From the IMG/VR virus record IMGVR_UViG_3300015242_000042, positions 1 through 23,336 of that record: a DNA stretch of 23,336 bases; one strand, given 5' to 3'. The position numbers were made by a program, and so were the translations under genes. Positions 10,079-19,817 of the stretch are shown one piece after another. Source of the DNA: a virus. The stretch's first letter is position 1; each line of letters begins with the position of its first letter. The notes beneath the pieces are model-generated. The model was not told the origin of the DNA, searched no databases, and saw only the letters and a list, made by a program, of their open reading frames with translations.

Positions 10079-11710
10079 ATGACGAATTCTCTTGGCAAGT
10101 ATGCTGCTTCTCAGAAGCAGGCTAAGGTTGCCACTCCTCAGACAGAGCGTACCCCTGGTCGAACTGATGAGGTAAAGAACAACGCGGGCGGGTTTGTGTT
10201 CAAGGTCGATGAGAAGTCACGACTTGAGCGCTTCCTGATTCTTGGTACCGACAAGGGTACTTACTACGTTGGTGAGCAGAAGCTTACTGGCGAGAACGTC
10301 ACCTTCCTGAAGGAGCTTGTTCGTAAGAACGAGCGTCTGGTTGTGGACACCGCTGTTGACGTCTCTGTAAATGGTCGTGCGCTTAAGAATTCTCCCGCGC
10401 TGTTCGCTCTGGCTACGGTTATGAGCGAGGGTCAGGATAAGGCTTACGCCCGTGCGGCTGTGCAGAAGGTTGCGCGTACCTCTACTCACCTGTACGAGTA
10501 TGGTGATTACATCGAGTCTCTTGGTGGATGGGGTCGTGCAAAGCGACAGTCTATTTCTGAATGGTATGAGTCTAAGGACGCAAGTGACCTATCTTACCAG
10601 GCAGTCAAGTACCGTCAGAGGAATGGCTGGACGCACCGTGACCTCTTTAGGCTTTCTCACCCAAAGGGTGTTGACCGATACGTCGGTGACTTCATTCTTG
10701 GTAAGGAGTCTGAGGCTGTTGCAACGTTTAATGGTCCTGATTACATTGCGGGATTCAATGTTCTTAAGTCTGCACAGACAGTTAAGGATGTTCTGACTGC
10801 TCTTGAGCAGTTCCCGTATATGCCATGGGAGGCTATTCCTACTCAGTTCCTCAAGGAGCAGAAGGTTTGGAAGACGCTCTTCTACCAGGGTCAGCTTCGT
10901 GGTCAGGCTCTCGTTCGTAACGTCACTCGCCTAGCGCGAATGGGTGCGTTCGATGACATGGTTTTCGCTGCTGACTATGCTGCACGACTTGCGGATGCGG
11001 AAATGATTAGGAAGACTCGTCTTCACCCAATCAACTTCCTTAACGCTGTTGTTGTGCATCAGGAGGGTCAGGTTGACCGTAGGAATCAGGGCTATTGGTC
11101 AACGGGACGCAACAAGGATTGGAAGTCTAACGGAAAGATTGTGGATGCTCTCAATGAGGGATTCCACCTTGCTTTCAAGACTGTTGAGCCTGCTAACAAG
11201 CGAACTCTAGTCGCAACGGATGTTTCAGGGTCTATGACTCAGAACGCTATTGGACTGGACCTGTCTTGTGCTCAGGTTTCTGCGGCGGTTTCCATGACGG
11301 TTGCTCGTACTGAGCCTTACAGCGATATCGTTGGCTTCGCTACCGATATTCGTGACCTTGGTATCACTGCCAAGTCTTCTCTGACCGACGCAATGCGTAA
11401 GGTCCAGAGTTACAACTTCGGTGGTACTGATGCGGCTGCTGCAATTAAGTATGCTGACCGACAGGGAATTCAGGTTGACACCTTCGTCGTTATCACTGAT
11501 AACGAGACGTGGGGCGGAAGCCAGAAGCCTTTCCAGGCTCTTAAGCAGTACCGTCAGAAGACCGGAATTGATGCACGTCTTGCGGTTCTCGGTGTGGCGT
11601 CTACGGACTTCACTATCGCTGACCCTACGGACCGTGGTATGATGGACTTCGTTGGTTTTGATTCAAATGCTCCGAAGGCTCTCGCAGACTTCAGTGCTGG
11701 TCGAATCTGA
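10079..11710 (+). CDS. Ro60-like TROVE/vWA RNA-binding protein
   Basis: This 543-residue protein has the plan of Ro60 (bacterial Rsr). An N-terminal alpha-helical TROVE ring covers about residues 40-370; it includes the SHPKGVDRYVGDFILG and LPxQFLKxxxVW-like parts typical of the family. A C-terminal von Willebrand A domain follows, with a complete MIDAS: D381-V-S383-G-S385, T450 and D474. Ro rings hold 3' ends of misfolded or damaged RNAs in the central hole and bind Y RNAs on the outside; in bacteria Y RNA can connect Ro to a 3' exoribonuclease. Its own hairpin-rich leader and a terminator (11716-11742) isolate it. Five Y-like RNAs lie 0.6-2 kb upstream. Confidence 0.92.
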   Translation: MTNSLGKYAASQKQAKVATPQTERTPGRTDEVKNNAGGFVFKVDEKSRLERFLILGTDKGTYYVGEQKLTGENVTFLKELVRKNERLVVDTAVDVSVNGRALKNSPALFALATVMSEGQDKAYARAAVQKVARTSTHLYEYGDYIESLGGWGRAKRQSISEWYESKDASDLSYQAVKYRQRNGWTHRDLFRLSHPKGVDRYVGDFILGKESEAVATFNGPDYIAGFNVLKSAQTVKDVLTALEQFPYMPWEAIPTQFLKEQKVWKTLFYQGQLRGQALVRNVTRLARMGAFDDMVFAADYAARLADAEMIRKTRLHPINFLNAVVVHQEGQVDRRNQGYWSTGRNKDWKSNGKIVDALNEGFHLAFKTVEPANKRTLVATDVSGSMTQNAIGLDLSCAQVSAAVSMTVARTEPYSDIVGFATDIRDLGITAKSSLTDAMRKVQSYNFGGTDAAAAIKYADRQGIQVDTFVVITDNETWGGSQKPFQALKQYRQKTGIDARLAVLGVASTDFTIADPTDRGMMDFVGFDSNAPKALADFSAGRI

Positions 11711-13276: not shown

Positions 13277-13349
13277 GCCCCTGTAGAGTAATGGATAACT
13301 CAGCACTCTTCTAAAGTGTACAATGCTGGTTCGAATCCAGTCAGGGGTA
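13277..13349 (+). tRNA. tRNA-Arg(TCT)
   Basis: Acceptor GCCCCTG/CAGGGGT, anticodon loop CTTCTAA in stem GCACT/AGTGT, T loop TTCGAAT, discriminator A. Confidence 0.92.
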
Positions 13350-13353
13350 CGCA

Positions 13354-15432: not shown

Positions 15433-15466
15433 ACCCCGGTTACTCAGTGGCCGGGGTTTTACTTTT
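15433..15466 (+). terminator. Intrinsic terminator after tRNA-Lys
   Basis: ACCCCGG (15433-15439)/CCGGGGT (15451-15457), followed by TTTACTTTT: the most classical terminator of the window. It lies only 20 nt before the vWA gene, whose ribosome binding site follows at once. Confidence 0.85.
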
Positions 15467-15476
15467 AGGAGAAAAC

Positions 15477-16280
15477 ATGTTCGGTCGTCGCAAGGCTGCT
15501 TTTGTTCCCGACAACACCAAGCGAGTTCTCAAGACCGTTAAGGTCGTTAAGCGAGACCCTTCTACTGCTGCTGCACCTGTTGACCTTATCAAGAAGGTCG
15601 GTGTTTCGTTTGAGAAGAAGGTTGAGTCTGCTGTCAATCTGAACAAGAATGTCAGTGGTCCTTCTCGCGGGGTTGTGTGGAATGTAATTGGTCTGCTTGA
15701 CGAGTCCTACTCTATGGACCCTTTCTTCTATGATGGTACGGTCCAGGAGATTGTTGACCGTGTTCTCGCATGGTCTGCCTCGGTTGACGCTGATGGCCTG
15801 GTGCCGTTTGGCGGGTTTGCTAACAGTCACGTTTGGCACGGAGACGTTGACCTGACGAACGTTAATAACGTCGTTGCTACAAACGGCTGGTCCCCTTGGG
15901 GTGGAACCAACCTTGCTGACTCTCTCAAGGCCATCCTTGACATGGTTAAGGACATGGGAGATGCTTGGCAGGAGAACCCCATCCTTCTATTCATTGTGAC
16001 GGACGGAATGCCTCAGAACCAGGCCCTTGTTAAGCAGTACATTCAGGAGCTTTCTCAGTATCCTGTCTTTATCAAGATTCTGCGGGTTGGGAATGACTCT
16101 GGTGCCAAGGCTTTTGTTGAAGACCTTGACAACATGGTTGGTGGTCGTCTTGTGGATAACGTTGAGGCTCCGGATGATGGTCTCCGCAAGGGGATGTCTG
16201 ACGATAAGTTCAACGCTGCCATGATTAACGACATGGACAAGTACGTCAATGAGGCAACTGCGGCGGGTCTGCTTAGTTGA
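15477..16280 (+). CDS. von Willebrand A domain protein
   Basis: The 267-residue protein has a basic N-terminal segment of about 60 residues (MFGRRKAAFVPDN at its start) and then a complete vWA fold with MIDAS: D75-E-S77-Y-S79, T144 in GGTNLADSL, and D176 in VTDGMP. The domain type is close to TerF/TerY-like vWA proteins of stress and phage defence gene clusters, which bind protein partners through a metal ion. There are no membrane or secretion signals. The ATG at 15477 has TTAGGAG at 15465-15471. It is the second vWA protein here besides Ro60. Confidence 0.85.
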   Translation: MFGRRKAAFVPDNTKRVLKTVKVVKRDPSTAAAPVDLIKKVGVSFEKKVESAVNLNKNVSGPSRGVVWNVIGLLDESYSMDPFFYDGTVQEIVDRVLAWSASVDADGLVPFGGFANSHVWHGDVDLTNVNNVVATNGWSPWGGTNLADSLKAILDMVKDMGDAWQENPILLFIVTDGMPQNQALVKQYIQELSQYPVFIKILRVGNDSGAKAFVEDLDNMVGGRLVDNVEAPDDGLRKGMSDDKFNAAMINDMDKYVNEATAAGLLS

Positions 16281-17739: not shown

Positions 17740-17765
17740 CTGTGGCCATAGCATAAAAGTAATGT

Positions 17766-17811
17766 TCTAGTTTGTGACACTAGAGAAGAGGGGGCGGTAC
17801 CCTCTGGTCAC
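17766..17811 (+). ncRNA. Pseudoknot with inserted hairpin before tRNA-Cys
   Basis: TCTAGT (17766-17771)/ACTAGA (17779-17784), with loop bases GTGAC (17774-17778) pairing to GTCAC (17807-17811), and an inserted AGAGGG/CCCTCT hairpin. The plan equals those before tRNA-Pro and tRNA-Asn. Confidence 0.65.
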
Positions 17812-17815
17812 CCCA

Positions 17816-18968: not shown

Positions 18969-19103
18969 CACAGAGGGTTCTGGGTGGTATGCTGGTTCGA
19001 CTCCAGCCTAGGTGATGGTCGCGTGCGGTTCGAGCCCGCGTTATAAAATATTGGGTCAAATAGGGTAGCTCCCGCCGGTAGGTTCGATTCCTACACCCTC
19101 TGT
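18969..19103 (+). ncRNA. tRNA-like RNA with three T arm-like hairpins
   Basis: A 10-bp terminal stem (CACAGAGGGT at 18969-18978 with ACCCTCTGTG) looks like an extended acceptor. Its 3' strand follows a perfect T arm GTAGG-TTCGATT-CCTAC. But instead of D and anticodon arms the inside has two more T arms, GCTGG-TTCGACT-CCAGC and TGCGG-TTCGAGC-CCGCG. It may be fused remains of several tRNAs or a new tRNA mimic; no anticodon can be assigned. Confidence 0.5.
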
Positions 19104-19108
19104 GTTTT

Positions 19109-19180
19109 GTCTCTGAAGTTCAACGGATGAACAAATCCCTCCTAAGGATTAGGCTGCTGGTTCGAATCCAGTCAGAGACA
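19109..19180 (+). tRNA. tRNA-Arg(CCT)
   Basis: Acceptor GTCTCTG/CAGAGAC, anticodon loop CTCCTAA in stem AATCC/GGATT, T loop TTCGAAT, discriminator A. Confidence 0.93.
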
Positions 19181-19181
19181 C

Positions 19182-19330
19182 TTGCAAGGAATGTTGGCTT
19201 AGAAGCAGCCATCATCTAAGGAGTGACAACCTGAGAGCGACCTGTAGTAGCCTCGCAAAGGTAGGGACTGGAATTGTCCTACGGGGAAACAAATAGTACC
19301 GTGTCTTTGGCGTAAGAGCACACCTTGCAA
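19182..19330 (+). ncRNA. Mimic of the 23S rRNA GTPase-associated centre (helices 42-44)
   Basis: Bases 19191-19215 match the 25 nt of E. coli 23S rRNA from A1057 to U1081, and 19310-19319 match 1091-1100 except one base. The adenines equivalent to A1067 (19201) and A1095 (19314), which contact L11-domain ligands such as thiostrepton, are kept. TTGCAAGG (19182-19189) and CCTTGCAA (19323-19330) close the domain as helix 42 does. An insert of about 84 nt (near 19225-19308) with its own hairpins, closed by TGACA/TGTC, replaces the tip of helix 44. No protein is encoded. Confidence 0.9.
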
Positions 19331-19334
19331 CATT

Positions 19335-19534: not shown

Positions 19535-19801
19535 GGGGTAGCTTGGTTTCGACTTTGCAGGATAGTATATGAACGCAACCGTTCTTTGGTAAAAGAACTG
19601 AAACAGACCAAAACAATAGATGCAAACACTAACTTTGCTCTCGCTGCGTAAGTAGCCGGGTTTGTCGGTGACCTTGGAACAGAACACCGACTAGACAAAA
19701 TGTGTAGATAATGTGCAAGACCAGCAAGTTTGATTGACATGGTTGTGTAACGGTTATATGCTTGATAGTGAAGGACGCGGGTTCGACTCCCGCCTACTCC
19801 A
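19535..19801 (+). ncRNA. ssrA: tmRNA with tag ANTNFALAA
   Basis: The ends form the tRNA-like part: acceptor GGGGTAG (19535-19541)/CTACTCC (19794-19800), discriminator A, the tmRNA-typical TTTCGAC at the 5' side, and T arm GCGGG-TTCGACT-CCCGC. The resume codon is GCA at 19622; the tag frame runs to TAA at 19649-19651 and reads ANTNFALAA, ending in ALAA as host tags for ClpXP. Further stems between tag and 3' end would be pseudoknots. No CCA is encoded. The RNA would free stalled ribosomes and mark their products for degradation. Confidence 0.93.
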
Positions 19802-19817
19802 CAAGATAAGGAAGATT

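Follow-up and report, generated by a model that had tools for sequence, protein, structure and literature searches.

What does a copy of a ribosomal functional centre do in a phage genome? The question is raised by a short element in a virus record (IMG/VR IMGVR_UViG_3300015242_000042; the whole stretch of 23,336 nucleotides analysed here is called the window), which holds the GTPase-associated centre of 23S rRNA (GAC; 1054-1105, H43/H44). In E. coli 23S numbering, positions 19182-19224 of the window correspond to 1048-1090, and 19310-19330 to 1091-1111. The element, its parts and its two RNA neighbours are as follows.

19109-19181, plus strand: tRNA-Arg(CCT), called by ARAGORN and Rfam; directly abuts the 5' end of the RNA
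19182-19330, plus strand: whole GAC-mimic RNA gene, 149 nt, supported by a held-out covariance model and family covariation
19182-19189, plus strand: closing helix, 5' strand (1048-1055); pairs perfectly with 19323-19330, family covariation
19191-19215, plus strand: H43 (1057-1081), 25-nt exact match to E. coli 23S
19216-19220, plus strand: 1082-1086 loop, with a C1082-G1086 version of the rRNA 1082-1086 pair
19221-19224, plus strand: GAGU, 5' side of H44 (1087-1090); A1088 is present for the U1060-A1088 contact
19225-19305, plus strand: inserted domain, 81 nt, with a covarying basal stem GACA (19225-19228) / UGUC (19302-19305)
19306-19309, plus strand: UUUG linker, constant in the phage family and absent from rRNA
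19310-19322, plus strand: 3' part of H44 (1091-1103), with A1095 at 19314 and the phage-specific A1101 at 19320
19323-19330, plus strand: closing helix, 3' strand (1104-1111); pairs with 19182-19189 and covaries
19535-19802, plus strand: tmRNA, tag ANTNFALAA, called by ARAGORN and Rfam; next RNA gene downstream

A preliminary description, made from the letters of this DNA, had reported a long exact 23S match, a matching H44 strand further on and a new closing helix, placed between a tRNA and the tmRNA, and all of this was confirmed. With E. coli 23S rRNA, the longest identical stretch measures 25 nt (1057-1081, 19191-19215), and the second rRNA-like half (1091 onward) begins at 19310, 95 nt past the end of the exactly matching first half. 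H44 is indeed opened, being interrupted between 1090 and 1091 by the 81-nt domain, and both adenines pointed out earlier, A1067 (A19201) and A1095 (A19314), are present in this copy. The top of H42 is exchanged for an arbitrary closing helix of 8 perfect base pairs (TTGCAAGG/CCTTGCAA, 19182-19189/19323-19330), in the register of the rRNA pairs 1055-1104 and 1054-1105. No other 23S sequence lies near the window RNA, the flanks are tRNA and phage ORFs, and the element is not part of a 23S gene. The Rfam model LSU_rRNA_bacteria gave only a weak local match below the gathering threshold (19.5 bits, E=2.6e-4), and folding the sequence by itself yields nothing out of the ordinary (z=-1.4).

Comparison with other phages shows that the element belongs to a structured phage RNA family, in which the secondary structure of the GAC and its known long-range pairs are preserved. 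When a covariance model (R1) was trained on 36 phage elements with the window left out, window positions 19180-19331 scored 79.7 bits (E=1.2e-20), which bears out the earlier judgement that the match is beyond chance. For covariation we used 83 members that are less than 90% identical in the core. By APC-corrected mutual information, the top 14 of all column pairs are exactly predicted pairs (z 4.9-20.9), namely those of the closing helix from 1047-1112 to 1053-1106, the base of H43 (1057-1081 and 1058-1080), 1082-1086, and four pairs of the insert basal stem. The 1082-1086 pair alternates among U-A, C-G and A-U (z=14), and the insert basal stem, which is always kept, covaries as i+1 to i+4 with i-1 to i-4 (z 6.5-18). 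Among the 36 members, 90.4% of paired cells can pair, against 66.7% in shuffles and at most about 55% in slid controls, and double changes number 231 against 84 in shuffles. De novo folding with RNAalifold recovered the same core, and the pairing of H43 and H44 with the closing pair 1055-1104 is present as in the 23S GAC. The long-range partner U1060 is found in 117 of 117 members, and A1088 in all 83 of the ungapped set, which was pre-filtered on GA at 1087-1088. Elsewhere in the family the inserts range from 51 to 365 nt with differing folds, and neither an Rfam match nor a shared motif or partner was found for them. The RNA is best regarded as non-coding, since a sense frame is open throughout in only 7 of the 83 elements.

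The family to which the window RNA belongs is undescribed and spans more than 120 contigs, which is a lower bound. The search of phage and rRNA records that had been suggested earlier thus revealed a widespread phage family and not a peculiarity of a Streptomyces-type phage. Besides obvious host-rRNA contaminants, BLAST against phage records found mostly unannotated intergenic sites in unrelated phages: Aeromonas 4_4572, Cronobacter GAP32, Pectobacterium CBB, Serratia BF, six Erwinia SNUABM phages and Kaldavass, together with Xanthomonas XbC2, XaC1 and XacN1 and Pseudomonas pf16, UNO-G1W1, Milchi and Astolliot. Gram-negative bacteria are the hosts of most identified carriers. Ten copies found through the rRNA-like 5' half all go on to an insert and then to UUUGGCGUrrnAGCrCAC, which is absent from 23S. 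Scanning IMG/VR with TTTGGCGTRRNAGCRCACC gave at least 119 stretches; among all loci collected, the 5' half lies upstream of the 3' pattern in 123 of 132 sites, and the covariance model picks up several of the remaining 3'-pattern sites (L019, L104, L113). Two copies, in tandem or far apart, occur in L119, L022 and the contig shared by L057 and L124. The family is strongly concentrated in phages. Among 84,980 genomes of bacteria and archaea, the 3' pattern matched 60 times, about the chance expectation from its length, and the 13 matches with a true 5' half are probably prophages or phage contigs. Plasmids were considered as carriers and rejected, the best 20 of 522 plasmid matches spanning only the rRNA-like half, as expected of plasmid rRNA operons. 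The preliminary description knew of no such phage RNA, and no described counterpart was found in Rfam 15 or in the open PMC papers searched. In Rfam 15, the window and the loci of 12 relatives gave only tRNA and tmRNA, the sub-threshold LSU match and, away from the element itself, a handful of chance matches that also stay below threshold.

The copies differ from rRNA in a consistent manner. Compared with 27 distinct bacterial 23S sequences, phage copies have G1054-C1105 where 23S has A-U and A or G at 1101 where 23S has U, and they also have in common U1090, the UUUG linker and an insert placed between 1090 and 1091. Several 3' positions are fixed by the IMG/VR pattern, so that invariance there is no evidence; the named phages, however, were found by BLAST without the pattern, and the UUUG linker and A/G1101 are common to them, as is G1054-C1105 to most of them (three have A-U). 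These fixed phage-specific characters point to one origin of the family, and their presence in the pattern-independent phages makes repeated capture of host rRNA unlikely.

Members of the family tend to lie in phage tRNA arrays. The window holds about 20 tRNA genes, and 3' processing of tRNA-Arg(CCT) could release the 5' end of the window RNA; a 64-aa ORF lies between the RNA and the tmRNA. Across the family, a tRNA or tmRNA gene is no more than 100 nt away in 41% of members, and every one of the 299 tRNA/tmRNA genes found up to 2 kb from a member shares its strand. Association with tRNA genes is common but not necessary, because the GAP32/CBB/BF jumbo-phage group has no tRNA within 2.5 kb of the RNA; altogether, 40% of carriers have no tRNA gene within 2 kb. 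Genes downstream of members are unrelated small ORFs or tRNAs, with no ribosomal protein gene under control as in a ribosomal protein leader. The nearest relatives of the window phage, Stigma, MeganTheeKilla and Annadreamy (Stanwilliamsviridae), lack the RNA. Absence from all related phages, together with lack of a transcript, had been proposed as grounds for dismissing it; the absence is real for these relatives, but it does not dismiss the RNA, since the family recurs in unrelated phages. In Stigma (L196, about 830-930) and MeganTheeKilla (L197, about 865-950), a different conserved element of about 80 nt, with arms GGCCCGTC...ACGGGCC, occupies the same site between tRNA-Arg CCT and tmRNA. 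Because the nearest relatives lack the RNA and two of them have another small RNA-like element in its place, the GAC RNA behaves as an exchangeable cassette.

The tRNA region of the window has further features of its own. A tRNA with a CTA anticodon (13277-13350, plus strand; tRNA-Pyl by ARAGORN) is a possible amber suppressor in a phage array, and Rfam adds a tRNA missed by ARAGORN between tRNA-Tyr and tRNA-Cys (17742-17812, plus strand). A vWA TerF-like protein (PF10138) is encoded at 15447-16280 (plus strand). At 18969-19104 (plus strand) lies an RNA-like element that was not called as tRNA, closed by the stem CACAGAGGG/CCCTCTGTG and bearing three hairpins that resemble T-arms (GGTTCGACTCC, GGTTCGAGCCC, GGTTCGATTCC); it has a relative in the corresponding position of Streptomyces phage Stigma (L196) and is possibly a tRNA-like or Y-type RNA. 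A phage Ro60 homologue with TROVE and Ro60 vWA domains (10079-11710, plus strand; PF05731, PF25045, phrog_850) is its possible partner.

What the family conserves, and what it lets go, bears directly on function. Invariant in the 83-member set are G1059, U1060, G1063, C1072, C1079, A1084, A1085 and A1088; among these, the tertiary-core positions of the 5' half (1059, 1060, 1063, 1072, 1079, 1084 and 1085; invariant or nearly so) are not fixed by the pattern. In contrast, 1067, 1068, 1070 and 1096 are variable in phages and constant or nearly so in 23S. Position 1067 is A in 68 members, G in 11, C in 3 and U in 1, so that 15 of 83 are non-A, whereas all 27 bacterial 23S sequences have A. Position 1068 is G in 67 and A in 16, 1070 is A in 66 and G in 17, and 1096 is A in 61 and G in 22, while A1095 is kept in 77 of 83; 1095 and 1096 are restricted to A or G in the pattern set. 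We take the loop tips at 1067, 1068, 1070 and 1096 to be thiostrepton and EF-G contacts, A1067 being the key one for thiostrepton. It looks as if selection acts on an L11-binding fold off the ribosome and not on drug or factor contact. In addition, 25% of members have A at 1061, and folding and L11-binding work on the 58-nt GAC has used its U1061A form (PMC10161774).

On this basis, our best explanation, which we put forward tentatively, is a non-coding phage RNA, encoded on its own, which reconstitutes the L11-binding GAC off the ribosome and acts as a decoy for host L11, so blunting either RelA/(p)ppGpp signalling or the function of L11. By analogy with the isolated 58-nt GAC, which binds L11, the RNA probably binds host L11 as well. 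The L11 gene was found in none of 50 carriers (control 14 of 14), and the partner would therefore be the host's. As a decoy, the RNA would leave less L11 for host ribosomes, and L11-poor ribosomes would enter a relC-like state, uncharged tRNA no longer activating RelA; phage translation would then not be shut down by (p)ppGpp during a tRNA-depleting infection. That the benefit is such a relC-like sparing of phage protein synthesis is possible, and we hold it with more doubt than the binding itself. Keeping L11 off ribosomes would allow translation to run on when tRNAs are short, which fits the company of tRNA genes. Against the L11 decoy, the insert in H44 could hinder L11 binding, and to matter beside tens of thousands of ribosomes the RNA would need a high copy number as well as a supply of L11 that either exchanges or is freshly synthesized. 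The 40% of carriers without a nearby tRNA gene also count against it.

A second rRNA-like copy was found when rRNA was compared with the carrier loci, namely a 71-nt ungapped match to 23S 2110-2180 (L1 stalk, H76-H78) at three loci.

L033 1641-1711, minus strand: L1-stalk mimic on a 409.5 kb contig
L265 4444-4514, plus strand: L1-stalk mimic on a 412.8 kb contig
L266 388-458, minus strand: L1-stalk mimic on a 104.9 kb contig

Each adjoins tRNA-Arg(ACG) on the same strand, and compensatory changes are seen between L033 and L266 (GGCGA/UCGCC versus GGUGG/CCACC). The L1-stalk mimic was not found in named phages, and two of its three carriers, the L033 and L266 contigs, also have the GAC RNA. L1 and L11 are encoded in one operon, which L1 represses through an rRNA-like site (PMC10931766). 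Since the same phages copy two ribosomal protein sites, a strategy of ribosomal protein decoys is favoured over drug binding. It is thus possible, though doubtful as a generalization, that large phages use free-standing copies of rRNA domains, of the L11 site widely and of the L1 stalk in some, as baits for peripheral ribosomal proteins of the host, which would remodel its ribosomes and keep the stringent response off during infection. As a separate observation, 25 of 27 bases at L017 403-429 (plus strand) match the 16S 530 loop (E. coli 515-541); this match is unique in IMG/VR, lies on the strand opposite to the tRNAs, and is possibly chance or contamination.

Several other explanations were weighed against the L11 decoy. 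The GAC fold may merely dock the RNA onto L11, or stabilize the RNA, with the variable insert as the effector that brings another RNA or protein to L11. A nearly constant core with an always-kept basal stem, beneath inserts of different size and fold that match nothing in Rfam, is what such a scaffold would look like, but the inserts have no common motif or partner and some are only about 50 nt, and we consider this rather unlikely. Because insert size and sequence vary so much, the inserted domain may nevertheless carry a second function beside L11 binding. The RNA might also protect the ribosome by drawing off a toxin, a defence nuclease or another host enzyme that reads the 23S GAC. Phage tRNA arrays may serve to replace cleaved tRNAs, and both the location with such arrays and the retention of the entire GAC fold would suit this idea; yet the relaxed positions (1067-1070, 1096) are just those exposed in the loops for such enzymes to recognize, and no defence nuclease is known to us to cleave the GAC, which makes the idea improbable. 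The same relaxation at loop tips touched by EF-G counts against a factor-surface mimic that titrates translational GTPases (EF-G, IF2) or RelA directly, even though the GAC is half of the factor-binding site. Two long inserts do have a 12-13-nt sarcin-ricin-like match, but the best shuffled sequences match as well, the GAGA loop is not kept, long-range pairing is open to these bases too, and most members have nothing like it. We therefore discarded sarcin-ricin-loop mimicry in these inserts (L126, L059), and direct titration of factors is in our view a poor candidate. A long-insert class of about 300 nt (L126, L059, L068, L076) exists, with an AGUA/GAA motif that is sarcin-ricin-like in two members; searches of the inserts for other 23S or 16S pieces gave nothing above the null.

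The preliminary description had listed, among possible roles, a sponge for thiopeptide antibiotics made by Streptomyces, and this role is now very improbable; of the roles it listed, titration of L11 and dampening of RelA are still the best candidates. Thiostrepton does bind between L11 and H43/H44 (PMC9998046), and the window copy keeps both A1067 and A1095. However, the named carriers infect Gram-negative bacteria, the RNA is missing from near relatives among Streptomyces phages, and across the family neither adenine is constant, 15 of 83 members having lost A1067 and 77 having A1095; an L11-binding RNA is favoured over a drug sponge because the L11-binding fold is kept while the loop tips are relaxed. 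As for an assembly error joining host rRNA, some phage records do contain plain 23S contaminants (Pd_22F, OR84xxxx, phiDP), but members of the family share G1054-C1105, A/G1101, the UUUG linker, the insert and the closing helix, covary, and sit between phage genes. An artefact is thus refuted, and we give it practically no credence.

If large phages do use copies of rRNA domains as decoys, imitation of the ribosome would be a new kind of phage counter-regulation, and a conserved copy of a ribosomal centre in many unrelated phages would be a new viral route onto the host ribosome. The family was overlooked because it is intergenic and scores under rRNA thresholds. It adds an rRNA-like class to the phage 'translation kits' of tRNAs and tmRNA, and it offers a handle on whether phages must disarm L11/RelA signalling. 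In addition, its natural variants could serve as L11 ligands.

Compared with the 58-nt L11-binding domain of 23S rRNA, the phage RNA has the same secondary structure, the pairs 1060-1088 and 1082-1086, the closing-pair register and, in most members, A1067 and A1095. Unlike it, the phage RNA is free-standing, with H42 replaced by an arbitrary helix, relaxed loop tips, G1054-C1105 and A1101 in place of A-U and U, and UUUG with a 51-365-nt domain between 1090 and 1091. Racr anti-CRISPR RNAs are phage RNAs that mimic CRISPR repeats; they resemble the role proposed here in that a phage RNA imitates a host RNA to catch host proteins, and differ in target and origin. The T4 stable RNAs rnaC and rnaD are likewise phage RNAs of unassigned function beside tRNA genes, but they are not members of the family, since the whole T4 genome gives no match with model R1. 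Leaders of ribosomal protein operons, such as the L1 site in the rplK-rplA mRNA (PMC10931766), also copy the rRNA site of a ribosomal protein, whereas the phage RNA is viral, stands alone, has no conserved downstream gene, and copies the site of L11, which is not the regulator known for its operon. EBER1, which interacts with L22 (PMC4645642), comes from a eukaryotic virus and does not copy a ribosomal functional centre, yet it is, as the phage RNA would be if it binds L11, a viral non-coding RNA directed at a ribosomal protein.
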